Source: Nisaea sp.
Lineage (GTDB): Bacteria > Pseudomonadota > Alphaproteobacteria > Thalassobaculales > Thalassobaculaceae
Reading direction: 5' to 3'
DNA length: 64,000 bases
Assembly (NCBI RefSeq): GCF_017640745.1
Contig: NZ_JAEPQA010000002.1
Location: 62,001 to 126,000 of the forward strand
In this document: positions 50,203 to 61,440 of the stretch, one piece after another
Position numbering within the stretch: the stretch's first letter is position 1
How the letters are laid out: every line of letters starts with the position of its first letter
Notes under the pieces: model-generated
Told to the model about the DNA's origin: nothing
Seen by the model: the letters and a program-made list of their open reading frames with translations, nothing else
The model's database searches: none
Program-made: the position numbers and the translations under genes

Positions 50203-50949
50203 ATGGATTTCGATCTCATGGCGGAAGCCCTGCCGAAGATCCTCGACGGATTGCCGGTCACCATGGCCCTCGCGGCGACTTCGCTGTTCGCCGGCTTCTT
50301 CCTCGCCGTTGGCATCGCGCTGATGCGGCTGTCCTCCTTCAGGCCGGTCTCGGCCTTCGCCTATGGCTTCGTCTATGTCTTCCGCGGCACGCCGCTGCTG
50401 GTGCAGATCTTCCTGATCTATTACGGCACCGGGCAGTTCGAGGTCGTGCGGGAAAGCTTTCTCTGGCCGGTGCTGCGCGAGGCCTGGTGGTGCGCGATCC
50501 TGGCGCTGACGCTGAATACCGGTGCCTATACCAGCGAGATCATCCGCGGCGGCATCCTCTCGGTGCCGTTCGGCCAGGTCGAGGCGGCCAAGGCTTGCGG
50601 CATGAACGCGCTGATGCGTTTCCGCCGCATCGTGTTCCCGCAGGCGATCCGTCAGGCCCTGCCGGCCTACGGCAACGAAATCATCCTGATGATCAAGTCG
50701 ACCTCGCTCGCCAGCACCATCACCTTGCTGGAAATGACCGGGATCGCGCGGAAGATGATCTCGCAGACCTACAAGCCGCTCGAGATCTTCCTCGTTGCCG
50801 CGGTCTTCTACCTGACGCTGGTCTTCGTCGTGACCCGGCTCGTCGCCTTTATCGAGCACAGGCTCAATCCGGATCGCCGCGATGCGGTCCGCAGTGCCAA
50901 GGGCAAGGACATGACCACCGTGGCAGCGGTCGGTTCCGATGTCCGCTGA
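50203..50949 (+). CDS. Polar amino acid ABC transporter permease (HisM-like)
   Basis: 248-aa permease, paralogous to the preceding one, beginning 3 bp after it. FRGTPLLVQIFLIYYG is the HisM/ArtM signature, and EAAKACGMNALMRFRRIVFP is the ATPase-contact loop. The C terminus overlaps the following acetyltransferase gene by 11 bp. Confidence 0.94.
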   Translation: MDFDLMAEALPKILDGLPVTMALAATSLFAGFFLAVGIALMRLSSFRPVSAFAYGFVYVFRGTPLLVQIFLIYYGTGQFEVVRESFLWPVLREAWWCAILALTLNTGAYTSEIIRGGILSVPFGQVEAAKACGMNALMRFRRIVFPQAIRQALPAYGNEIILMIKSTSLASTITLLEMTGIARKMISQTYKPLEIFLVAAVFYLTLVFVVTRLVAFIEHRLNPDRRDAVRSAKGKDMTTVAAVGSDVR

Positions 50950-51460
50950 GACCGCCGAGATCGTTCTCCGCCGGGCCGGACCAGCCGATGAGGGCACCAT
51001 CCGCCGCTGGCTCGTCGCGCCGCATGTCGCCCGCCGGACCTATAGGCTGTTCTCGGATATCGTCGAGACCCTGGAAGATGTTCTGAGGGACCCGCTGGCG
51101 GGCCTCTTTATCGCCGAACTGGATGACCGCCCGATCGGTCTCGTTCATGTCTACAAGGCCCAAGGCGATCAGCGCTGGGCCGGGGTTGCCGACGTGACCG
51201 AGCGGACGCGCGCGATCGACTTTCTGATCGGCGCGACTGACATGGTCAACAAGAAGCTCGGCCGCCGCATGCTGAATGCGCTGGCGGCTCAGGTGTTCCG
51301 CGATCCCGGGATCGACCGCATCGTCGTCTGCCCGCATGCCGACAACTGGCCGGCGATCATTGCTCTCAAGCGCGCCGGCTTCCGGGAAAAGGGACGGCAT
51401 CCGGATGCCGCCCTCAACGCGATGTACCTGACGGTGACCCCAGCCACGCTGAAGAAATAG
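50939..51460 (+). CDS. GNAT-family N-acetyltransferase (AAC(6')-like)
   Basis: 173-aa acetyl-CoA-dependent acyltransferase. The layout (LRRAGPADEGTIRRWL, FIAELDDRPIGLVHVYKA, DFLIGATDMVNKKLGRRML, then DRIVVCPHADNWPAIIALKRAGF) resembles the Acetyltransf_8 / aminoglycoside 6'-N-acetyltransferase-like group and siderophore-type acyltransferases. The 11-bp overlap with the amino acid permease gene shows translational coupling, so the natural substrate may be an amino-acid derivative. Antibiotic resistance should not be inferred. Confidence 0.85.
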   Translation: MSAETAEIVLRRAGPADEGTIRRWLVAPHVARRTYRLFSDIVETLEDVLRDPLAGLFIAELDDRPIGLVHVYKAQGDQRWAGVADVTERTRAIDFLIGATDMVNKKLGRRMLNALAAQVFRDPGIDRIVVCPHADNWPAIIALKRAGFREKGRHPDAALNAMYLTVTPATLKK

Positions 51461-52480: not shown

Positions 52481-54211
52481 TCAGAGGCCCAGCTTCGTTT
52501 TCAGCCGGCCGGCGACCCGGTCCATCAGAGGCTTCCAGTCGAGGCCTTCTTCGGCGGTTCGCCGGTGGATGTGGATGCTTGGCCAGAACGGTACCTGATC
52601 GGTTCCGAGGAACGTCCAGTTCGCCGCATGAACCATGGCTTCGGCGGGTTTGCCGAGTGCTCCCGCGAGGCTCATCAGCAAATTGTTCGGAACGACGACT
52701 GCATCGAGTGCAGCCATCAGCGCGACGGTGTCGTCGATGTCATTCGTCAGATCGAGACCGTCCGGTCGGATGATTTCGACCGCGTTCGCTTTCTCCATAC
52801 CGGCGACTTCGTCTTCGGAATGATCATATTGCAGCGTGACGAAACGCACGCCGGCAAGCCGGAGGACGGCTGCAAGGTTCTCCGGTCCGGGATAATAGAC
52901 CGTACTCAAGTTGCGGCCGGCGCGGGACCGCCAGGAAAGGCCGAGATAGGGCGGTGGACCGAATTTTTCGAGTTCCATGCGCCAGTGAGTGACACGCTCC
53001 GGATCGGGCTTGAGAAAGCCGGCGCCGGCGGGGAAGTTCTCGAGCGATTTGCGGAACAGGCCAGGCAGGCTCCCCGCCATCACGAAACAGTCGGCTCCGG
53101 AGGCGGCCGTGATCTGACTGTAGTCGGCCGGAGACAGGCGATTTTCCGGTTTCCGCAGGCGGTCGAAAAAGCGGAAGTCCGGGAAGGACCGTTCGAACAG
53201 GGTGCGCAGCCGGTCCGTGCATTCTACGGTTATGCTGTCGAGATGGCCGGCGTCGAGCTCGGCCGCGAGATCGGCGAAGCAGCTGGCGAAGAGAACCTCG
53301 TCTCCGAGGCCCTGCTCAGCCGGCACGATTAGATTGCGGCCCGATTCCGGAGCGCCGCTCACCCAAATACGGGGAGGCAGGCCACGCCGCAATCTCGCGG
53401 TGGGGACAAGCCGCGCGTCATAGAGCCGCCAGCCATGCTCGAGTTTGCCGTCTGTGAGCAGATAAAGTCCGAGATTGAAGGCGATGACCGGATTGTCCGG
53501 CGCATGCCGGAAGGCCTGTCCCGCTTCCGCGGCCGCCTCGCTGTAACGGCCCGCGCGGTAGAGCGCCTGCGCATGGTTGGCGCGGCCGTCGGCATTTCTC
53601 GGATCCGACGTGACGGCGCGTCTGCCGCATAGCAGGGCGACGCCGGTTTGGTCGATCTCGAAAAAGACGGCGGAACGCGCGGCCCAGAGATTGGCCGCAT
53701 CCGGGCTCAGAACCAGACCGGTGCGGGTCGCCCTATCTGCTTCGTCGTGCTTCGCCACGCGGCGGAGCAGGGTGGCGCGCTGCTCCCATTTGTACGGGTC
53801 GAGCGGCGTAAGCCGGGTGGCCTGCCGGTGCGCGGCCATGGCCTCGGCGTTGCGGCCGAGGCGGATGGCGGTGTTCGCCCGCTGCATCCAGACCTCGGCA
53901 TTTGCGGCCGCGGCCGCCGTTGCCCGCCGGAAGCCGATGAGCGCCAGGGGGTCCTGGGTGCACCGGACGTGAAATGCGGCAAGGTTGAAGAGGGTGGAGG
54001 CGTTCGCGGGATCGAGAACCAGGGCTTTGCGGAAGGACAGGGTCGCTTCTGTCGCTTTGTCTTCCCGGGAGGCGCTGGCGACCGCAAAATATTCCCAGAT
54101 TGCGGCATCGTCCGGCGTTTCCTCGAGCAGTGCGCGGTAGGCCGCAGCTGCGCCGGTGAGGTCGCCTTGTCTGTGAAGGGCCAGCGCCCGGTCGAGAGCG
54201 GGTCGCCGCAT
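52481..54211 (-). CDS. TPR - glycosyltransferase-like fusion protein, divergent paralogue (3 of 3)
   Basis: 576-aa soluble protein. The first 250 residues are TPR-like (LALHRQGDLTGAAAAYRALL, EATLSFRKALVLDPANA, AAAEAGQAFRHAPDNP). The C-terminal half follows the same plan as the two upstream paralogues (LPPRIWVSGAPESGRNLIVP, EQGLGDEVLFASCFADL, LGLSWRSRAGRN, LTNDIDDTVALMAALDAVVVP) but is clearly more diverged. The modular layout resembles Caulobacter FlmG, a flagellin glycosyltransferase. Its ATG overlaps the stop of the preceding paralogue by 4 bp, so the two are translated together. Confidence 0.8.
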   Translation of the reverse strand: MRRPALDRALALHRQGDLTGAAAAYRALLEETPDDAAIWEYFAVASASREDKATEATLSFRKALVLDPANASTLFNLAAFHVRCTQDPLALIGFRRATAAAAANAEVWMQRANTAIRLGRNAEAMAAHRQATRLTPLDPYKWEQRATLLRRVAKHDEADRATRTGLVLSPDAANLWAARSAVFFEIDQTGVALLCGRRAVTSDPRNADGRANHAQALYRAGRYSEAAAEAGQAFRHAPDNPVIAFNLGLYLLTDGKLEHGWRLYDARLVPTARLRRGLPPRIWVSGAPESGRNLIVPAEQGLGDEVLFASCFADLAAELDAGHLDSITVECTDRLRTLFERSFPDFRFFDRLRKPENRLSPADYSQITAASGADCFVMAGSLPGLFRKSLENFPAGAGFLKPDPERVTHWRMELEKFGPPPYLGLSWRSRAGRNLSTVYYPGPENLAAVLRLAGVRFVTLQYDHSEDEVAGMEKANAVEIIRPDGLDLTNDIDDTVALMAALDAVVVPNNLLMSLAGALGKPAEAMVHAANWTFLGTDQVPFWPSIHIHRRTAEEGLDWKPLMDRVAGRLKTKLGL

Positions 54212-56028
54212 CAGCGCGCTCTCAGATAGCCAAGGGCGACGCGAACCGCGTCAATAGTCCTCTGCCAGGATGCGTCAACGGCTTTCGGAAAGCTGCGGAT
54301 GCTTGGGAACCCCGGGAAGTGATCGGTGCCGTACTGCACGAAAAGCGGGACCGGATGAAACAGCCAGGTCGGCTTGCCAAGCGCGCCGCCGACCCAGCCG
54401 AGCGTGCTGCTTGGGCAGATCAGGATATCGGCGGCGGAGACGAGGGCGAGAATGTCGTCGAAATCGTCGGTCAGATCCAGGTCTGGCAGGATATGCGGGC
54501 CAAAACCCGTTTCCTTCGACAGGGCCTCGATCTCCTCTTCCCAGTCGTCGCCATACTGGATCGAGAAGACGTCGATGCCTGGTTCCCGCAGGACCGGCAG
54601 CCAGTCTGACAGCGCCGTGTAATGAATGTCGCGGAAGGCGGTGCGGTTGCGAGAGCGCCAGGCGAGCGCGACCTTGAGCCCGTCGCCCTTTCTCCCCATC
54701 GTCTCGCGGACCGTCCGGACGCGCTCCGGGTCGGCCTTCAGGTAGGGCTCGCCCGCAAAATCCCCGAGCGTCCGGCGGAAATGCAGCGCCAGGCTCCCGG
54801 CGTCGATGGCGTAGTCGACGGGGTGGTCCTTCGGCAGCCAATCGTATTTCTGTACCGGGCGGAAACCGTCACCCGCGCGCGCATAGGGATGCACCAGCGC
54901 TTCGGGGAAAGCGCGCCGGAGGACCGGGAGCAGACGCGCGTCGCATTCGACGACCAGCTCGGCGCCGGCAGCCATAACGTCGTGATAGATCGAGGCGTAG
55001 AGGATCTCGTCTCCTACTCCTTCCTCGGCGCAGATCAGCAGACGTTTGCCCGCCAGCGGTTCCCCCTGCCAGCTCGGCGGCAGACCAAGTCTGCGCACAC
55101 GGTCGGGTGCCTTGTGCCGCCATTCCCGTTCCCGCCAGCCTTCCTCGAGGCGTCCGGCGGCGAGCAGGCGGATCGCATGCCGCAGATGGATCTGCGGCTC
55201 ATCAGGTGCGAGACGCAATGCGGCTTCGGAATGTTTCAGCGATGTCTCGATGTCGCCGGAAAAATAAGCGAGTTCCGCCAGACCCGTCTCCGGGGCGGCG
55301 TAGCCGGGGGCGAGAAGAATGGCGCGGTTGAACCAACGCCGTGCCGCGTCGTAGTCGAGCCGGTTGAATTGAAGGAAGCCGGTGCTGTTTGCCGCCTCGG
55401 CCAGTGCCGGCGCGAGGAGCAGTGCACGCTTCAGAGCCTTGTCGGCCTCGTCAAGCGCGCCCCGGTCCATCAGCGTGGTTGCGAGATTGGCGTGGGTTTC
55501 CGGGCTGAGCGGCGCGAGCCGGACTGCGGTCCGGTGCGCGGCCTCCGCCTCCTCGACCAACCCGTCCTGACGAAGGGCGTTGCCGAGATTCATATGTCCG
55601 TTCGCGTGTTGCGGAGCCTTTTCGATGGCGCTCCGGAGCAGGCCTATGGCTTCCGCGACGGCGCCGCGTTCCTGGAGCAGGGCGCCGAGATTTGCCAGCG
55701 CATCGACGAATCCCGGCTCCTTCGCCAGCGCTTTGCGATATGCGGTCTCGGCGTCTTCCGGTTTGCCGAGAGCTTTCAGAATTTGGCCGAGATTGCTGAG
55801 GAACTCCGGGCGGCCGGGCGCGATCTCGATTGCGGCCTCCACCAGTCGGCGTCCCGCCTCGTGCTGCCCCCCCTGATGCATCAGGACACCGAAGAGATGG
55901 AGCGCGTCCGGCTCTTTCGGGTTCTGTTGCAGGATCTTCTGATAGAGCGCGGCCGCTTCCGCAAGGTGGCCCTGCTGGTGATGCGCAAGCGCCGCTTGCA
56001 TCAGGCTTTGGGTTTGCGGAAAAGACAT
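54211..56028 (-). CDS. TPR - glycosyltransferase-like fusion protein (2 of 3)
   Basis: 605-aa soluble protein with about eight TPR units over residues 10-300 (HHQQGHLAEAAALYQKILQQ, EDAETAYRKALAKEPGF and others). A GT-B-like C-terminal domain follows: LPPSWQGEPLAGKRLLICAEEG, VGDEILYASIYHDV, YDWLPKDHPVDYAIDAGSLAL, VALAWRSRNRTAFRD, DLTDDFDDILALVSAADILIC, SSTLGWVGGALGKP. TPRs would bind the acceptor protein and the C-terminal domain would transfer a sugar. With a nonulosonate synthase upstream, pseudaminic-type O-glycosylation of flagellin or another surface protein is the best inference. Confidence 0.85.
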   Translation of the reverse strand: MSFPQTQSLMQAALAHHQQGHLAEAAALYQKILQQNPKEPDALHLFGVLMHQGGQHEAGRRLVEAAIEIAPGRPEFLSNLGQILKALGKPEDAETAYRKALAKEPGFVDALANLGALLQERGAVAEAIGLLRSAIEKAPQHANGHMNLGNALRQDGLVEEAEAAHRTAVRLAPLSPETHANLATTLMDRGALDEADKALKRALLLAPALAEAANSTGFLQFNRLDYDAARRWFNRAILLAPGYAAPETGLAELAYFSGDIETSLKHSEAALRLAPDEPQIHLRHAIRLLAAGRLEEGWREREWRHKAPDRVRRLGLPPSWQGEPLAGKRLLICAEEGVGDEILYASIYHDVMAAGAELVVECDARLLPVLRRAFPEALVHPYARAGDGFRPVQKYDWLPKDHPVDYAIDAGSLALHFRRTLGDFAGEPYLKADPERVRTVRETMGRKGDGLKVALAWRSRNRTAFRDIHYTALSDWLPVLREPGIDVFSIQYGDDWEEEIEALSKETGFGPHILPDLDLTDDFDDILALVSAADILICPSSTLGWVGGALGKPTWLFHPVPLFVQYGTDHFPGFPSIRSFPKAVDASWQRTIDAVRVALGYLRAR

Positions 56029-56129
56029 GCTTCGATCGAGATCCGTCCTGTTTTGCGAGCAGGTTCAGGCCGTTACCGGCGCTTGGACAATGCCAATATA
56101 GCGGAAACGGGACGTGGCCCGATACGGTC

Positions 56130-57839
56130 TCACAGCGTTCTCACGGCGTCGGTAATGGCGCCCGTTACGGCTTCCCAGGATTGCGCAAGAGATCTGGTGA
56201 AGACACGGACGGTCGGAAAACCCGGATGCTTGCCGGTCCCCATCAATTCGAAATGCGGCTCGACGCCGAACTCCATGACCGGTCTGCCGAGCCCGGCGCC
56301 GACCCAGACAAGCGTTGTGCTCGGGCAGACGATAGCGTCGACGGCGACGCCGAGCGCGAGGATGTCCTCGAAATCGTCGGTCATGTCGACCCCCTCGAGC
56401 ACGTGTAGCCGGGCGCCGAAGGCCTTCTGCGCGGCCGCGATTTCCTCCCGCCAGCCTCTTCCGTACTGCATCGAGACGACCTGAATAGCGGGATCGGTCA
56501 GAAGGGAGCGCCAGTCCGAGAGGCCGGTGTAGTAGAGATTACGGAACGGGGCGACCTCCTTGGAGCGCCAGCAGAAGCCGAGCTTCGGGCCGGGCGGTAG
56601 GGCGGCCAGGCGGTCCCGCATTTGCGCGACCCGTTCTGCATCGGCGGTGAGGTAGGGACGCTGATGCGCGTAGGACGCGACGTCGGGACGCAGGATCGAG
56701 GGAAGGCTGCCAGCGTCGATCGCATAGTCGACCGGGGGATCTTTCGGCAGCCAGTCGTAGCGGTGGACCGGGCGGAACCGGTCTCCCTCCCGCTTGTAGG
56801 CATGAACCGCACAGCCCGGGAACGATCGCCTGAAGACGGACAGCAGGCGCGGCGCGCACTCGATCACCACGGAGGCTCCGGCTGCGATGAGATCCGGGAT
56901 CATGGAAGCATAAAGCAGCTCGTCGCCGACACCCTCTTCCGCGCATACCAGAATGCGTTTTCCGGCGAGAGGCTCGCCCTGCCAGCGCGGCGGCAATCCT
57001 TCCCGCCGGATACGGTCGGCGCGCTTCAGGCGCCACTCGAACTCCTGCCAGCCCTCGCGGACATGCCCTGCGGCCAGCAGGCGAAAGCCGTGCCGGACAT
57101 GGATCTGCGGGTCGTCCGGCGTGAGCTCCAGGGCACGTTCCGAATGGCGAAGGCAGGCCTCAAGATCGTTCTCGAAGAAACAGACTTCGGCGAGCCCGGA
57201 ATGCGGCGCTGCATAGAGCGGCTGGGCCGCGAGTGTGCGGCGGAACCAGTCCCGTGCGAGGTCGAGGTCGCGGATCGTGATCTGCAGGAAGGCGAAGCTG
57301 TTGGCGGCTTCGATCAGCGCAGGGGCAAGCAGCAGGCATTTTCTGAGCAGCGCGCTTGCCGCGTCGTGACGGCCGAGATCGATCAGGTTGCCGGAGTGGG
57401 CCAGCAGAGTGGCCGGATCAGCCGGTGTGAGACAGAGAAGGCGGGCATGGAGCTTTGCCGCTGCGACGACCTGGCCGCTGTCGCGCCGGGTGATTGCGAG
57501 ATCCCGAAGCGCGTCCGGATTTGCAGGGGTGGCGATCAGTGCTGCGCGGAAGGCCTTGTCCGCCTCGGCCTCACGTCCGAGATGGAGCAGGATCCGCGCC
57601 TGGTTGCCGCGAAAATCGGTATGCAGCGGTGCGGTCGCCACAGCCGCGTTGACCAGTTTCAGTCCCTCGGCGGATTGCCCGGCCTGATGCAGGAGGAAGC
57701 CGAGCAGATGCAGCGCGTCGGGATGGCGCGGCGAGAGTTTCAGGACCTGTTGATAGAGCGGCGCCGCACCGACGAGATCGCCCGCCCGGTGTTTCTGCAG
57801 CGCCTCATGCAACAGGGTCTGCGGCATCGCCTCGGCCAT
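56130..57839 (-). CDS. TPR - glycosyltransferase-like fusion protein (1 of 3)
   Basis: 569-aa product from ATG 57839, which follows the pseI stop by one base. TPRs cover about residues 5-270 (LQKHRAGDLVGAAPLYQQVL, KAFRAALIATPANPDALRDL). The C-terminal domain from about 285 is closely similar to the second paralogue: LPPRWQGEPLAGKRILVCAE, EGVGDELLYASMIPDL, YDWLPKDPPVDYAIDAGSL, LGFCWRSKEVAPFRN, DMTDDFEDILALGVAVDAIVC, STTLVWVGAGLGRP. Its tight coupling to pseI is the strongest local link between these proteins and nonulosonic acid synthesis. Confidence 0.87.
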   Translation of the reverse strand: MAEAMPQTLLHEALQKHRAGDLVGAAPLYQQVLKLSPRHPDALHLLGFLLHQAGQSAEGLKLVNAAVATAPLHTDFRGNQARILLHLGREAEADKAFRAALIATPANPDALRDLAITRRDSGQVVAAAKLHARLLCLTPADPATLLAHSGNLIDLGRHDAASALLRKCLLLAPALIEAANSFAFLQITIRDLDLARDWFRRTLAAQPLYAAPHSGLAEVCFFENDLEACLRHSERALELTPDDPQIHVRHGFRLLAAGHVREGWQEFEWRLKRADRIRREGLPPRWQGEPLAGKRILVCAEEGVGDELLYASMIPDLIAAGASVVIECAPRLLSVFRRSFPGCAVHAYKREGDRFRPVHRYDWLPKDPPVDYAIDAGSLPSILRPDVASYAHQRPYLTADAERVAQMRDRLAALPPGPKLGFCWRSKEVAPFRNLYYTGLSDWRSLLTDPAIQVVSMQYGRGWREEIAAAQKAFGARLHVLEGVDMTDDFEDILALGVAVDAIVCPSTTLVWVGAGLGRPVMEFGVEPHFELMGTGKHPGFPTVRVFTRSLAQSWEAVTGAITDAVRTL

Positions 57840-57840
57840 G

Positions 57841-58902
57841 TCAGTCCGCGAAACCCTCGACCATCTCGCCTGCAAGCGGCTCGCCGCGCTTCAGGGCGCG
57901 GGTGGCGCGCTTGCCGAGCACCTGGCCGAGATATTTTGGCGGCAGGCCGTTCGCCGGGCGGATTGAGCGGACATTTGCTTCCGTCAGAACCTCGCCCGCG
58001 GCGACGTCGGCAACGACGTAGAGGCTGCGGCGCATTGCCAGCATTTCCTTCTCGGCGTCGGTCGGCCGGTAATTCGGTTTGCCCCTCGCGTCGAAGACGG
58101 CACGCAGGTTGCGGACCAGCACCGCCAGTTCCTCCGGCTCGAGCGAGAAGGCGGAATCGACCCCGCCGTCGGCCCGGCGCAGGGTGAAATGTTTTTCCAC
58201 CAGCACGGCGCCCATCGCGACCGCCGCCTCGGCGACGACCGTGTCCATCGTGTGGTCCGAGAGGCCGATGGCGACGTCGAGGCGGCCGGCGAGATCGGGG
58301 ATGGTGGCGAGGTTGGCCTGGTCGACCGGCGTCGGGTAGCCGCTGATGCAATGCAGGACGAGGATTTCCTCCGCTCCGGCGCCGCGGGCGGCGGCGACGG
58401 CCTCCTCGATTTCCTCGAAGCTTGCCATGCCGGTGGAGATGATCAGCGGTTTGCCGGTGCGTGCGCAGCGTTCGATCAGGTCGATATCGACGATCTCGGG
58501 CGAGGCGATCTTGTAGGCCGGGCAGTCGAGGCTCTTCAGCAGGTCGATGGCGGTCGGGTCGAATGGGGCTGAGAAGAGGGTGATGCCGATCTTGCGCGCG
58601 TGCGCGAAGAGCTCCTCGTGCCATTCCCAGGGGGTATGTGCCTCCTCGTAAAGCTCGAACAGCCGCCGTCCGGCCCAGAGCCCCTTCTCGATGACGAATT
58701 CCGGGCCGTCATGGTCGATGGTGATGGTGTCGGCGCGGTAGGTCTGGATCTTCACCGCATCCGCTCCGGCCGTCTTGGCGGCGTCGATCAGGGCGAGGGC
58801 GCGGCCGATCTCTCCATTGTGGTTACCGGACATCTCGGCGACCACGTAGGGCGGATGGTCCGGTCCGACCGGACGGCCGTCGATCTTGAAATCTTTCGCC
58901 AT
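57841..58902 (-). CDS. pseI: Pseudaminic acid synthase (NeuB family)
   Basis: 353-aa cytosolic enzyme that condenses phosphoenolpyruvate with a 6-deoxy-hexosamine to give a nine-carbon nonulosonic acid. NeuB TIM barrel: VAEMSGNHNG, ADAVKIQTYRADTI, TLFSAPFDPTAIDLL, YKIASPEIVDIDLI, ISTGMAS, GLSDHTMD, EKHFTLRRADGGVDSAFSL. A C-terminal SAF/antifreeze-like domain (about 290-350) ends the protein. ATG 58902 gives MAKDFKIDGRPVG; the open frame continues upstream into the divergent gene but that part is not coding. PseI rather than sialic acid synthase is favoured by the adjacent PseG. Confidence 0.92.
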   Translation of the reverse strand: MAKDFKIDGRPVGPDHPPYVVAEMSGNHNGEIGRALALIDAAKTAGADAVKIQTYRADTITIDHDGPEFVIEKGLWAGRRLFELYEEAHTPWEWHEELFAHARKIGITLFSAPFDPTAIDLLKSLDCPAYKIASPEIVDIDLIERCARTGKPLIISTGMASFEEIEEAVAAARGAGAEEILVLHCISGYPTPVDQANLATIPDLAGRLDVAIGLSDHTMDTVVAEAAVAMGAVLVEKHFTLRRADGGVDSAFSLEPEELAVLVRNLRAVFDARGKPNYRPTDAEKEMLAMRRSLYVVADVAAGEVLTEANVRSIRPANGLPPKYLGQVLGKRATRALKRGEPLAGEMVEGFAD

Positions 58903-58976: not shown

Positions 58977-60017
58977 GTGAGTCCGGGGATGCTTGCAATC
59001 CGCGCAGACGCCAATGCGCGGATCGGACTCGGCCATGCGATGCGCTGCTTCGCCCTCGCCGAGGGCTGGCGCGCGCGCGGCGGGGAGGCGGTGTTTTTCT
59101 CCGGCGACGTCTTGCCGGAGCAGCTTGCTGCGCGCCTCGAACAGGCGGGCATCGGGTTCCGCATTCTCGAAGACGCGGAGGCGGGACAGACCGTCGCTGC
59201 AGCGGTGCGGGATTGCGATGCGGTGTGGCTGGTGGCGGATGGACCATTTGCCGATGCCGGCTTCGTAGCGGCGGCGCGCGCCGCCGCACCCGTGTTGCTG
59301 ATCGACGACGCGGCCGACAGGGACACCTATCCGGCGGACCTGCTGCTGAACCAGAACGTACAGGCCAACGATGCGAGTTACGCGGGACGCACCGCGGCCA
59401 GGGTTCTCGCCGGGCCGCGCTACGCGCTGATCCGGTCCGATCTGCGCCAGGATCTGGTGGAGCGCGAGATCTCGGAGGCCCCGAAGCGGATTCTCGCGCT
59501 CGTCGGCGGCGCGGACCCGAACGGCTATCTCGCCACCCTCGTCGAGGCAGGCGCCGCGGCGCTCGTCGAGGCGGGGATCGCGGGTGGTCAGGTCGATGCG
59601 GTCATCGGTCCGGCCAATGCCTGGCGGCCCGAGGCGCTGATTTCCGGCTCCGTTGTCTACCGTGTCGGCGTGCGGGATCTCGGCGCGCTGATCGCCACGG
59701 CGGATATCGTGCTCTCCTCTGCCGGCTCGACGGTCTGGGAACTCGCCCTGCACGGCACGCCGATGATCCTCGGTGCGAGCGTGCCGGTGGAAGAACCGGT
59801 CGGGGCCGGCATGGCGGCGGAGGGCGCGGCGCTGTATCTCGGCCGTCTCGCAGAATGTCCGCCCGAGCGGATCACCGCCGAGACGGTCCGTCTCCTGCAG
59901 GATGCCGAGGAGCGGAAAAAGCTTTCCCGGGCCGCGGCGGCACTGGTCGACGGCGAGGGCGTGGAGCGGGTTATAGATGCCATGCTGGAGATCGGCGGGG
60001 GAGGCGGCGCCACGTGA
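58977..60017 (+). CDS. pseG: UDP-2,4-diacetamido-2,4,6-trideoxy-beta-L-altropyranose hydrolase PseG
   Basis: 346-aa GT-B-fold hydrolase that removes UDP from the sugar before PseI condensation. The N-terminal motif IRADANARIGLGHAMRCFALA, cored on GLGHAMRC, contains the catalytic His. Later motifs are LLIDDAADRDTYPADLLLNQN and VLSSAGSTVWELALHGTPMIL. The start may be GTG 58977 or ATG 58989. It is divergent from pseI across about 75 bp, so one small region probably controls both arms of the locus. Confidence 0.9.
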   Translation: MSPGMLAIRADANARIGLGHAMRCFALAEGWRARGGEAVFFSGDVLPEQLAARLEQAGIGFRILEDAEAGQTVAAAVRDCDAVWLVADGPFADAGFVAAARAAAPVLLIDDAADRDTYPADLLLNQNVQANDASYAGRTAARVLAGPRYALIRSDLRQDLVEREISEAPKRILALVGGADPNGYLATLVEAGAAALVEAGIAGGQVDAVIGPANAWRPEALISGSVVYRVGVRDLGALIATADIVLSSAGSTVWELALHGTPMILGASVPVEEPVGAGMAAEGAALYLGRLAECPPERITAETVRLLQDAEERKKLSRAAAALVDGEGVERVIDAMLEIGGGGGAT

Positions 60018-60784
60018 AGATCGTTGCCATCATACAGGCGCGGATGACCTCGACGCGGCTTCCCGGAAAGGTCCTGCGCGAGGTCTTGGGCAAGCCGTTG
60101 CTGGGCTATCAGGTCGAGCGGCTCAGGCGCTGCTGTACAATCGACGAGATCGTCCTGGCGACGACCGTGAACGCGACCGACGATCCGGTGGCAGCCTTTG
60201 CCGAAGCCGAAGGGCTGCGCTTCTGGCGTGGCTCGGAGGAGGACGTGCTCGCCCGCTTCGCCGGCGCGGCGGAAATGGCCGGGGCCGATATCGTCGTGCG
60301 GCTGACGGCGGATTGCCCGCTGGTCGATCCGGGTCTGGTCGACGAGGTGGTCCGGACCCTGACGGAAAGCGACCCGCCACTCGACTATGTCTCAAACGCC
60401 GGGAGCGGAACCCTGCCGGCCGGCCTCGATGCCGAGGTGATGCGGGCGGCAGCGCTTTTCGCCGCGCATGCGGAGGCGGTCGAGCGACAGGAGCGGGAAC
60501 ACGTGACGCCATTCATCTACAATCACCGGGAACGCTTCGCCTGCCGGATGTTGCGGCACGAGCCGCCGATCGAGGGACAGCGCTGGACCGTCGACCAGCC
60601 GGAGGATTTCGAACTGGTGCGCCGCATTCTCGAGGCGCTCTATCCGCAGAACCCGGCTTTCACCTACCGGGACGTGCTGGCGCTGCTCGCCGCGCATCCG
60701 GACTGGATCGAGATCAACCGCACGGTTTCCGCCAAGCCGAAACCGGTTAAGAATGAGGACGGCGCCTACCCGGACGAGGCATAA
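60014..60784 (+). CDS. SpsF-type cytidylyltransferase (PseF position)
   Basis: 256-aa nucleotidyltransferase starting at a GTG that overlaps the pseG stop by 4 bp. The nucleotide-binding motif is IIQARMTSTRLPGKVL, followed by RLTADCPLVDPGLVDEVV and the C-terminal RWTVDQPEDFELVRRILEAL. This is the SpsF/CTP_transf_3 type rather than the ARGGSKR type of classic PseF/NeuA. Its place suggests it makes the CMP-activated nonulosonic acid. That role is inferred from context. Confidence 0.85.
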   Translation: MKIVAIIQARMTSTRLPGKVLREVLGKPLLGYQVERLRRCCTIDEIVLATTVNATDDPVAAFAEAEGLRFWRGSEEDVLARFAGAAEMAGADIVVRLTADCPLVDPGLVDEVVRTLTESDPPLDYVSNAGSGTLPAGLDAEVMRAAALFAAHAEAVERQEREHVTPFIYNHRERFACRMLRHEPPIEGQRWTVDQPEDFELVRRILEALYPQNPAFTYRDVLALLAAHPDWIEINRTVSAKPKPVKNEDGAYPDEA

Positions 60785-60813: not shown

Positions 60814-61440
60814 ATGACCGACAGTTACCGCACCGAACAGGAAGCCTTCTGGGCCGGTGCGTTCGGCAATGCCTATATCGACCGCAACCGCGACGCGGCG
60901 ATCCTCGCCTCGCGCACGGCGATGTTTACGCGCATCCTATCGCGGGCGGGCAGGGTCGGCTCCGTGGTCGAGTTCGGGGCCAATATCGGGCTCAACATGC
61001 TGGCGCTCCGCACGTTGCTGCCGGAGGCGAAACTCTCGGCCATCGAGATCAATCCTGAAGCGGTCAAGGCGCTGCAGACGCAGCCGGATCTGAACGTTCA
61101 TCACGGCTCGATCCTTGACCCGCAGGTGAAGGAGCCTCACGACCTCTCCTTTACCTCCGGCGTGCTCATTCACATCAACCCGGACGAACTGCCGCGGGTC
61201 TACGACAACCTCTACGCGGCGAGCGGGCGCTACATCGCGGTCTCGGAATATTACAACCCGGCCCCGGTCGCGATTCCCTACCGGGGGCATGAGGACCGGC
61301 TCTTCAAGCGCGACTTCGCGGGAGATCTGATTGAGCGTTTCCCGGATCTGGCCTTGGTCGATTACGGCTTCATGTACCACCGGGACCCGAACTTCCCGGC
61401 GGACGACATGACATGGTTCCTGCTGGAGAAGCGGGGATAG
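60814..61440 (+). CDS. Pseudaminic acid biosynthesis-associated methylase
   Basis: 208-aa class I SAM-dependent methyltransferase. The SAM motif is VVEFGANIGLNMLAL at about 51-65, with acidic loop AIEINPEAVKAL. The N terminus (YRTEQEAFWAGAFGNAYIDRN) and the motifs SGVLIHINPDELPRVYDNLY and YYNPAPVAIPYRGHEDRLF match the methylase family that accompanies pseudaminic acid genes. It may O- or N-methylate the nonulosonate or a precursor. It follows the cytidylyltransferase after 29 bp. Confidence 0.87.
   Translation: MTDSYRTEQEAFWAGAFGNAYIDRNRDAAILASRTAMFTRILSRAGRVGSVVEFGANIGLNMLALRTLLPEAKLSAIEINPEAVKALQTQPDLNVHHGSILDPQVKEPHDLSFTSGVLIHINPDELPRVYDNLYAASGRYIAVSEYYNPAPVAIPYRGHEDRLFKRDFAGDLIERFPDLALVDYGFMYHRDPNFPADDMTWFLLEKRG

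Follow-up and report, generated by a model that had tools for sequence, protein, structure and literature searches.

Three consecutive TPR-glycosyltransferase genes behind pseI in Nisaea comprise a duplicated pair and an older lineage, with a likely role in flagellin glycosylation

The window analysed here, a stretch of 64,000 nucleotides from the genome of a Nisaea sp. (G000; 4.5 Mb in 83 contigs), carries three consecutive genes on the minus strand, downstream of the pseudaminic acid synthase gene pseI, whose products join an N-terminal half of tetratricopeptide repeats (TPRs) to a C-terminal glycosyltransferase (GT) half. We refer to these TPR-GTs, counted from pseI, as proteins 1, 2 and 3 (P0001, P0002 and P0003; Table 1). 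Proteins 1 and 2 are duplicates, which arose within Nisaea, of a pseI partner found across the order, and protein 3 represents a second pse-linked transferase lineage of greater age. We think it likely that they are cytoplasmic O-glycosyltransferases comparable to FlmG that move pseudaminic acid to flagellins, the duplicates acting on different acceptors or sites. The arrangement is not due to chance, since with the four further genomes of the genus in our comparison set, the triplet recurs in identical order in four of the five Nisaea genomes searched (G000, G002, G003 and G004). The fifth, G001, has two genes, a single counterpart of proteins 1 and 2 and a protein 3 gene. Protein 2 is 76% identical to its match in N. 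denitrificans and 75% identical to that in N. nitritireducens. The type strain N. denitrificans DSM 18348, which can be cultured, carries the triplet (L074).

The first-pass annotation of this DNA had described three neighbouring proteins of 569-605 residues with N-terminal TPRs and a common C-terminal domain, and the open reading frames (ORFs), the Pfam TPRs and the pairwise identities bear this out. Pfam names only TPR-type repeats, N-terminal in all three. Proteins 1 and 2 are 47% identical, and protein 3 shares 29-32% identity with them. The motifs GKRxLICAEEGVGDE and YDWLPKDxPVDYAID, which had been quoted for the common domain, are present in proteins 1 and 2 and missing from protein 3, in which the counterparts of the quoted motifs read GRNLIVPAEQGLGDE and LTNDIDDT and nothing resembles YDWLPKD. 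The AlphaFold models of proteins 2 and 3 (predicted local distance difference test score, pLDDT, 92.9 and 91.1; predicted template modelling score, pTM, 0.86 and 0.85, respectively) show in protein 2 a nine-TPR superhelix of 18 helices at residues 4-306 and an alternating alpha/beta GT-B domain at about 310-605, and in protein 3 eight TPRs and a GT-B half. Protein 1 would have eight TPRs, one fewer than protein 2, judging from its sequence. The C-terminal halves are predicted to be GT-B domains, by modelling in proteins 2 and 3 and by homology in protein 1, in keeping with the earlier assignment of these domains as glycosyltransferases. The FlmG-type architecture that had been suggested, N-terminal TPRs and a C-terminal GT-B domain in about 600 residues, is found as well, again by homology for protein 1.

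Foldseek returned full-length matches to SPINDLY and OGT, mostly with template modelling (TM) scores of 0.3-0.4 and a large root-mean-square deviation (rmsd). With VIA-align, protein 2 aligned over residues 106-605 with XcOGT (2vsy; Z 19.0, 385 residues, rmsd 8.2), and protein 3 over residues 286-576 with 3tov_B of family GT9 (Z 19.2, 269 aligned, rmsd 3.2). The remaining top rows of the fold search were mostly TPR proteins, and a family missing from these lists is not thereby excluded. A profile of 14 GT domains found heptosyltransferase II (1psw) at E 0.0015. Of the 26 sequences in alignment A3, 17 match the GT9 profile PF01075, P0002 not being among them, and none of P0001-P0003 matches it at E 0.01. 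Because of these 17 matches and the close fold match to 3tov, a distant kinship of the GT halves to GT9 is likely, and GT9 is probably the nearest family. Ten columns, including the GxGD motif, are invariant in 24 of 24 GT domains, proteins 1-3 included; we take the Asp of this motif to be the catalytic base in the heptosyltransferase WaaC. Protein 3 keeps all of these columns, which rules out that its GT domain has lost them.

The GT9 heptosyltransferases (PF01075; 1psw, 3tov) resemble the Nisaea proteins in the weak profile match and the fold match just given; those we know of lack TPRs and act on lipopolysaccharide. Enzymes of family GT41 (OGT, SPINDLY, XcOGT) likewise fuse a TPR superhelix to a GT-B domain, act on protein Ser/Thr and give the best full-length fold matches, but none of P0001-P0003 has a GT41 match in Pfam at E 0.01, so that the likeness is one of fold only, and the GT domain lies nearer GT9 by sequence and, for protein 3, also by fold. 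The Maf enzymes share the cytoplasmic transfer of nonulosonic acid to flagellin, which we propose here too, and, according to the part of the source available, Maf paralogues with different target sites have been reported or proposed (PMC13317340). In contrast to the N-terminal TPRs found here, however, the TPR of Maf-1 is C-terminal in the same partial account (PMC13317340), and PF01973 (Maf, MptE-like) matched neither proteins 1-3 nor anything else in G000, which rules out a Maf identity.

We read the descent of the three proteins from a 59-row GT-domain tree, a 68-row Nisaea tree and a later tree with class-level rows (78 rows in the context count described below). The first TPR-GT partners of pseI form one clade with proteins 1 and 2, with support of 100/99 both in the 59-row tree (26 rows) and in the class-level tree (18 rows). 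Protein 3 groups with the genes that stand second after pseI in G013 and G016 (95/75 and 98/87 in the same two trees) and lies nearer the TPR-GTs of flagellar loci (95/94 and 87/66). Both GT-domain trees rule out protein 3 as a third copy of the duplication that gave proteins 1 and 2. The earlier suggestion of three parallel transferases finds no support in that form, since the proteins do not make up one set, protein 3 belonging to another lineage. The single copy of G001 joins protein 1 in the Nisaea tree (100/92) and the class-level tree (98/82) and is unresolved in the 59-row tree; copy loss, recombination or a split before the duplication may account for it.

As regards proteins 1 and 2, the suggestion of different acceptors gains some support from their evolution, namely from one TPR fewer in protein 1 and a TPR half that is faster against the two nearest outgroups. 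Protein 1 has 569 residues in all four triplet genomes, and protein 2 and the G001 gene product have 605 (606 in G002 and G003). In the G000 alignment, protein 1 lacks exactly one 34-residue TPR of protein 2. Over the four triplet genomes the two proteins are 43-47% identical in the TPR half and 51-53% in the GT half. When the G000 and G002 proteins are set against the G001 gene, the TPR-half identity is 42-43% for protein 1 and 52-57% for protein 2, and the GT-half identity is 58-61% and 58-60%, respectively. The rate test comprised 24 TPR and 24 GT comparisons, from four genomes and six outgroups, which share sequences and are not independent. With the G016 outgroup, which we regard as safe, the TPR half had 45-49 changes in protein 1 and 21-24 in protein 2 (p 0.003-0.015, four genomes). 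With the doubtful G001 outgroup there were 60 and 20 changes in G000 (p 9e-6); these lowest p values deserve the least trust, since the G001 gene is perhaps no true outgroup. Values of p < 0.05 in all four genomes were obtained only with these two outgroups, and in two genomes only with G014. The G007, G013 and G024 outgroups gave no significant difference in the TPR half, and two comparisons, those of G002 and G003 with the G024 gene, ran in the opposite direction (25/32 and 26/29). The GT half showed no significant rate asymmetry in any of its 24 comparisons. This pattern is compatible with protein 1 having switched acceptor and kept its donor, and the loss of a TPR together with the faster TPR half could be a hint of acceptor specialisation.

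It seems very unlikely to us that proteins 1 and 2 are interchangeable copies that matter for dosage alone, as their place in one cassette, the even rates of their GT halves and the single copy of G001 might suggest. Both have been kept in all four triplet genomes despite the divergence described above, and protein 1 is consistently one repeat shorter, with a TPR half that changes faster against the near outgroups. A stepwise extension, in which one enzyme adds the first pseudaminic acid to flagellin and the other two, all docking through their TPRs, lengthen or decorate the glycan, is an explanation that we also find unlikely, though less so. It would suit the separate lineage of protein 3, in which the invariant GT columns are preserved, the further TPR-GTs in flagellar loci of the order, which are more than one sugar needs, and the methylase associated with pseudaminic acid in the cluster. 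However, a second step would more naturally alter the GT half, where the duplicates show no rate difference, and one pse-linked copy suffices in most of the genomes inspected.

The sequence of pseI followed by a TPR-GT is a conserved cassette across the order. A NeuB-family synthase above its model cut-off was found in 29 of the 36 genomes of our order set. Of these 36, 20 reach a completeness of 90% or more with contamination of 5% or less. We inspected 24 pseI loci, 5 from Nisaea and 19 from other genomes of the order (G008, G011, G012, G015 and G035, which also have NeuB above the cut-off, were left out), reading the neighbouring genes with a purpose-made gene finder and phmmer. A TPR-GT directly follows pseI on the same strand in 21 of the 24 (Nisaea 5/5, others 16/19). 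Most cassettes are single-copy, with a TPR-GT of 602-627 residues by longest ORF. Two TPR-GTs stand in a row after pseI in G013 and G016, the second of G013 reaching the contig end, and in G029 a second one lies between pseF and pseG. Relatives of pseG, pseF and the methylase all adjoin 14 of the 16 non-Nisaea cassettes. In G017 a mere remnant follows pseI, corresponding to about residues 135-381 of protein 2, and the rest of its GT domain was not found.

The first-pass annotation had reasoned from the lack of a flagellin gene in the window that the acceptors might include non-flagellar proteins. A PF00669 (Flagellin_N) search of the genome indeed gave no match on the contig of the window (C22). 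The argument is nevertheless weakened by eight such matches elsewhere in G000 (C66, four on C55, C1, C33 and C48), one of them much weaker and, at a guess, FlgL, and by TPR-GTs that are interleaved with flagellin genes in flagellar loci of the order; the loci fetched were those chosen for holding both. The profile PF00669 also matches a gene labelled FlgL by guess, and G008 and G032 count as flagellin-positive by weak matches only. In at least 21 of the 29 flagellin-positive genomes, a lower bound obtained by comparing the match lists by hand, a GT domain is found no more than 1 kb from a flagellin match, compared with 1.1 expected from random placement. NeuB above its cut-off occurs in 28 of the 29 flagellin-positive genomes versus one of the seven flagellin-negative ones (Fisher p 2e-5; G025, whose one match falls under the cut-off, is scored as lacking it), and in 15/16 versus 0/4 of the genomes that meet the completeness and contamination limits given above. 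The one flagellin-negative genome with NeuB is G017 (87% complete), whose pse-linked TPR-GT is the remnant described above. The co-occurrence with multiple flagellin genes, which had been proposed as a check, is seen within G000 and also across the order, where the number of TPR-GTs tracks that of flagellins (Spearman 0.69); differences in genome size and genome reduction may be partly responsible for this correlation.

Beyond the order, we examined 16 of the 25 matching class-level genomes with Caulobacter-like flagellins. Fourteen of the 16 have TPR-GT matches (1-4 each), which in 9/16 lie within 4 kb of a flagellin; other class-level TPR-GTs adjoin PseF- or PseG-like genes. Nine flagellin-adjacent class-level TPR-GTs, taken as stand-ins for Caulobacter FlmG, share with proteins 1 and 2 a poorly resolved group of 39 rows (92/80, not starred), which also holds pse-adjacent and other class-level members. 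Mapped on the tree, the labels of genomic context change three times among 68 labelled of 78 rows, and 200 shuffles gave a minimum of 15 and a mean of 21.7; close relatives share labels and are not independent events, and the class-level 'pse' labels rest on phmmer hits of 40-101 bits. Set aside before this count were the rows of 15 loci from the 59-row tree set, those of L169 and L075, of the flagellar stretches L316, L324, L326 and L328 and of the class-level L297 and L306-L312, together with short ORFs.

These data bear on the possibility that the pse-linked enzymes modify the hook, a pilin, an S-layer or another exported protein and that the TPR-GTs of flagellar loci serve flagellin. It could be argued from the distance between the cassette and the flagellins, from the 1-5 TPR-GT matches kept in five flagellin-negative genomes, and from the split of class-level TPR-GTs into flagellin-adjacent and pse-gene-adjacent clades. 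We nonetheless judge it quite unlikely, since NeuB tracks flagellin over the 36 genomes and the flagellin-less G017 retains only a remnant of its pse-linked TPR-GT. The tree is neutral on this point, as the pseI-linked clade is grouped (92/80) with both kinds of class-level clade.

Modification of flagellin by FlmG-like enzymes is the reading that we prefer, and for it we infer the donor, the acceptor, the linkage and the order of action as follows. The TPR superhelix would hold the acceptor, most likely flagellin, and the GT-B domain would attach to Ser/Thr a nonulosonic acid, which is most likely to be pseudaminic acid, donated as its cytidine monophosphate (CMP) sugar. The adjoining pse genes would supply CMP-pseudaminic acid, and transfer would occur in the cytoplasm, before export. 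Proteins 1 and 2 probably share this donor and serve different acceptors or sites, protein 1 having perhaps altered its grip through the loss of one TPR, and protein 3 would act as the older, second pse-linked transferase.

Several observations weigh against this reading. Neither Pfam nor NCBIfam gives a GT family match for P0001-P0003, and the pseF and pseG candidates match no model above its cut-off. The rate difference of the TPR halves is significant with only two to three of the six outgroups, and the lowest p comes with G001, whose standing as a true outgroup is doubtful. In Nisaea the pseI-linked TPR-GT genes are not beside flagellins, and the TPR-GTs of the main flagellin locus of this genus, three groups in all, belong to other clades than proteins 1 and 2; nor is the pseI-linked clade nearer the flagellin-adjacent than the pse-adjacent class-level clades. 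G020 and G021 have flagellin matches and pseI and no TPR-GT behind it. G025 has 6 flagellin and 11 TPR-GT matches and no NeuB above the cut-off, so some members of the family probably use other donors. Since G005, G006, G009, G017 and G019 keep 1-5 TPR-GT matches and have no flagellin match, some TPR-GTs may act elsewhere than on flagellin. Taken in its entirety, the family extends beyond pseudaminic acid and flagellin.

The FlmG of Caulobacter combines a flagellin-binding TPR half with a GT-B half, depends on pseudaminic acid and alone serves all six flagellins, as stated in the available part of its description (PMC7591256). By locus number, FlmG (CCNA_01524, 596 residues) adjoins flmH (CCNA_01523) and not neuB (CCNA_02961) in that same part (PMC7591256). 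FlmG was co-expressed in E. coli with flagellin and pse genes in this work. Set beside this partial description of the Caulobacter crescentus protein, the Nisaea TPR-GTs agree in the order of TPRs and GT-B domain, in length, in the NeuB/PseI pathway and in the presence of several flagellins in the genome. They differ in number, however, with three copies after pseI and 11-17 GT-domain matches per Nisaea genome as against the one FlmG described for Caulobacter. The literature that we searched, which lay mostly outside subscription journals and was available in part, yielded no account of tandem or multi-copy FlmG-like sets and nothing linking Nisaea with flagellin. There is reportedly published work on a FlmG of Brevundimonas.

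Substrate choice in cytoplasmic O-glycosylation is called poorly understood in the part of the FlmG study available (PMC7591256). The pair of proteins 1 and 2 amounts to a small natural experiment on target choice, in which the catalytic halves evolve alike and the TPR superhelices differ by one repeat, and the single-copy G001 and an order with mostly single copies offer a comparison at hand. It also points to a likely role for a very large class of proteins often recorded only as 'tetratricopeptide repeat protein'. A flagellar glycan code in Nisaea and its order, with dedicated TPR transferases at the pse locus or interleaved with flagellins in place of a single promiscuous FlmG, each for a different flagellin or site, and with new specificity gained through gain, loss and fast change of TPRs over a fixed catalytic half and donor, as in proteins 1 and 2, is a tentative extension that we regard as possible and rather doubtful. 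The interest lies in such a multi-transferase system, rather than in the three-gene array itself.

Three TPR-GTs in a row are less odd than they may seem, because the family is large, with 11-17 matches per Nisaea genome (14 in G000; in G002 one of the 17 is a fragment with stops) and as many as 22 in a genome of the order. Pairs occur in Nitrospirillum (L076, L078 and L079), and a Rhodospirillaceae metagenome-assembled genome has four in a row (L083:7738-15593). Together, family size, pairs and four-gene array rule out that the triplet is exceptional for the family. The Nisaea repertoire appears fairly stable and not a recent burst, since most of its groups are represented in at least three of the five genomes and in up to all five (68 rows).

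We noted some further features of the family. In L085, a single ORF of 1769 residues has GT-profile matches spread along its length. Azospirillum replicons in a plasmid collection have up to 35 places like protein 2 in one replicon, among which TPR-only matches may be counted. The fragment in G002 (C1:380159-380569) contains three stops and lies near flagellin genes, where other Nisaea have an intact gene; a related open copy is found at C2:446058. At L155:5272-9544 a TPR-GT of the Nisaea C77 group adjoins two methyltransferases and a WbqC-like protein, and a phmmer search of the 11 kb retrieved there gave no flagellin hit.

Table 1. Genes and intergenic gap of the pse locus (window positions).
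Feature	Position	Strand	Description
Protein 3 (P0003, 576 aa)	52481..54211	-	TPR half and GT-B half; older lineage
Protein 2 (P0002, 605 aa)	54211..56028	-	TPR half and GT-B domain
Gap between protein 1 and protein 2 genes, 101 bp	56029..56129	-	Intergenic
Protein 1 (P0001, 569 aa from ATG)	56130..57839	-	N-terminal TPR half, C-terminal GT half; immediately downstream of pseI
pseI, pseudaminic acid synthase, 353 aa	57841..58902	-	TIGR03586, E 3e-144; PF03102 and SAF
pseG-like gene, divergent from pseI	58977..60017 (start could be 58989)	+	TIGR03590, E 2e-35, 122.6 bits, below cut-off of 153.55
Cytidylyltransferase, candidate pseF	60014..60784	+	Matches KdsB, PseF and other models, in each case below cut-off
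Pseudaminic-acid-associated methylase	60814..61440	+	TIGR03587, E 3e-83, 278.8 bits, above cut-off

The 1-bp gap from pseI to the first TPR-GT gene is as it had been described. The 4-bp overlap claimed for the second and third genes is in fact an overlap of one base, at the junction TGATG. Simple scans of the 101-bp gap found no promoter- or terminator-like site, and this gap is poorly conserved between the G000/G004 pair and the G002/G003 pair. The synthase is identified as PseI by NCBIfam TIGR03586 (480.2 bits, cut-off 340.25), the NeuB_NnaB model staying below its cut-off, and the pseG-like and candidate pseF genes keep conserved positions across the order.

G000 has two NeuB-family synthases. 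The second, on contig C18 (L035, L036, L049), lies above the NeuB/NnaB cut-off, and its companions are a WbuX-type amidotransferase and HisH, both above their cut-offs, and a WbuZ relative below its own; by these profile matches, C18 holds a possible second, amidino-type nonulosonate region. This synthase lies about 33-52 kb from five TPR-GTs, with comparable spacing in G001, G002 and G004. Elsewhere in the window, a GNAT acetyltransferase at 50939-51460 resembles AAC(6') models; its best score (50.8 bits, cut-off 415) is far below all of their cut-offs, and these models do not class it as a resistance gene. In G007, a luciferase-like monooxygenase gene (PF00296) lies between pseG and pseF (L234:9399-10457).

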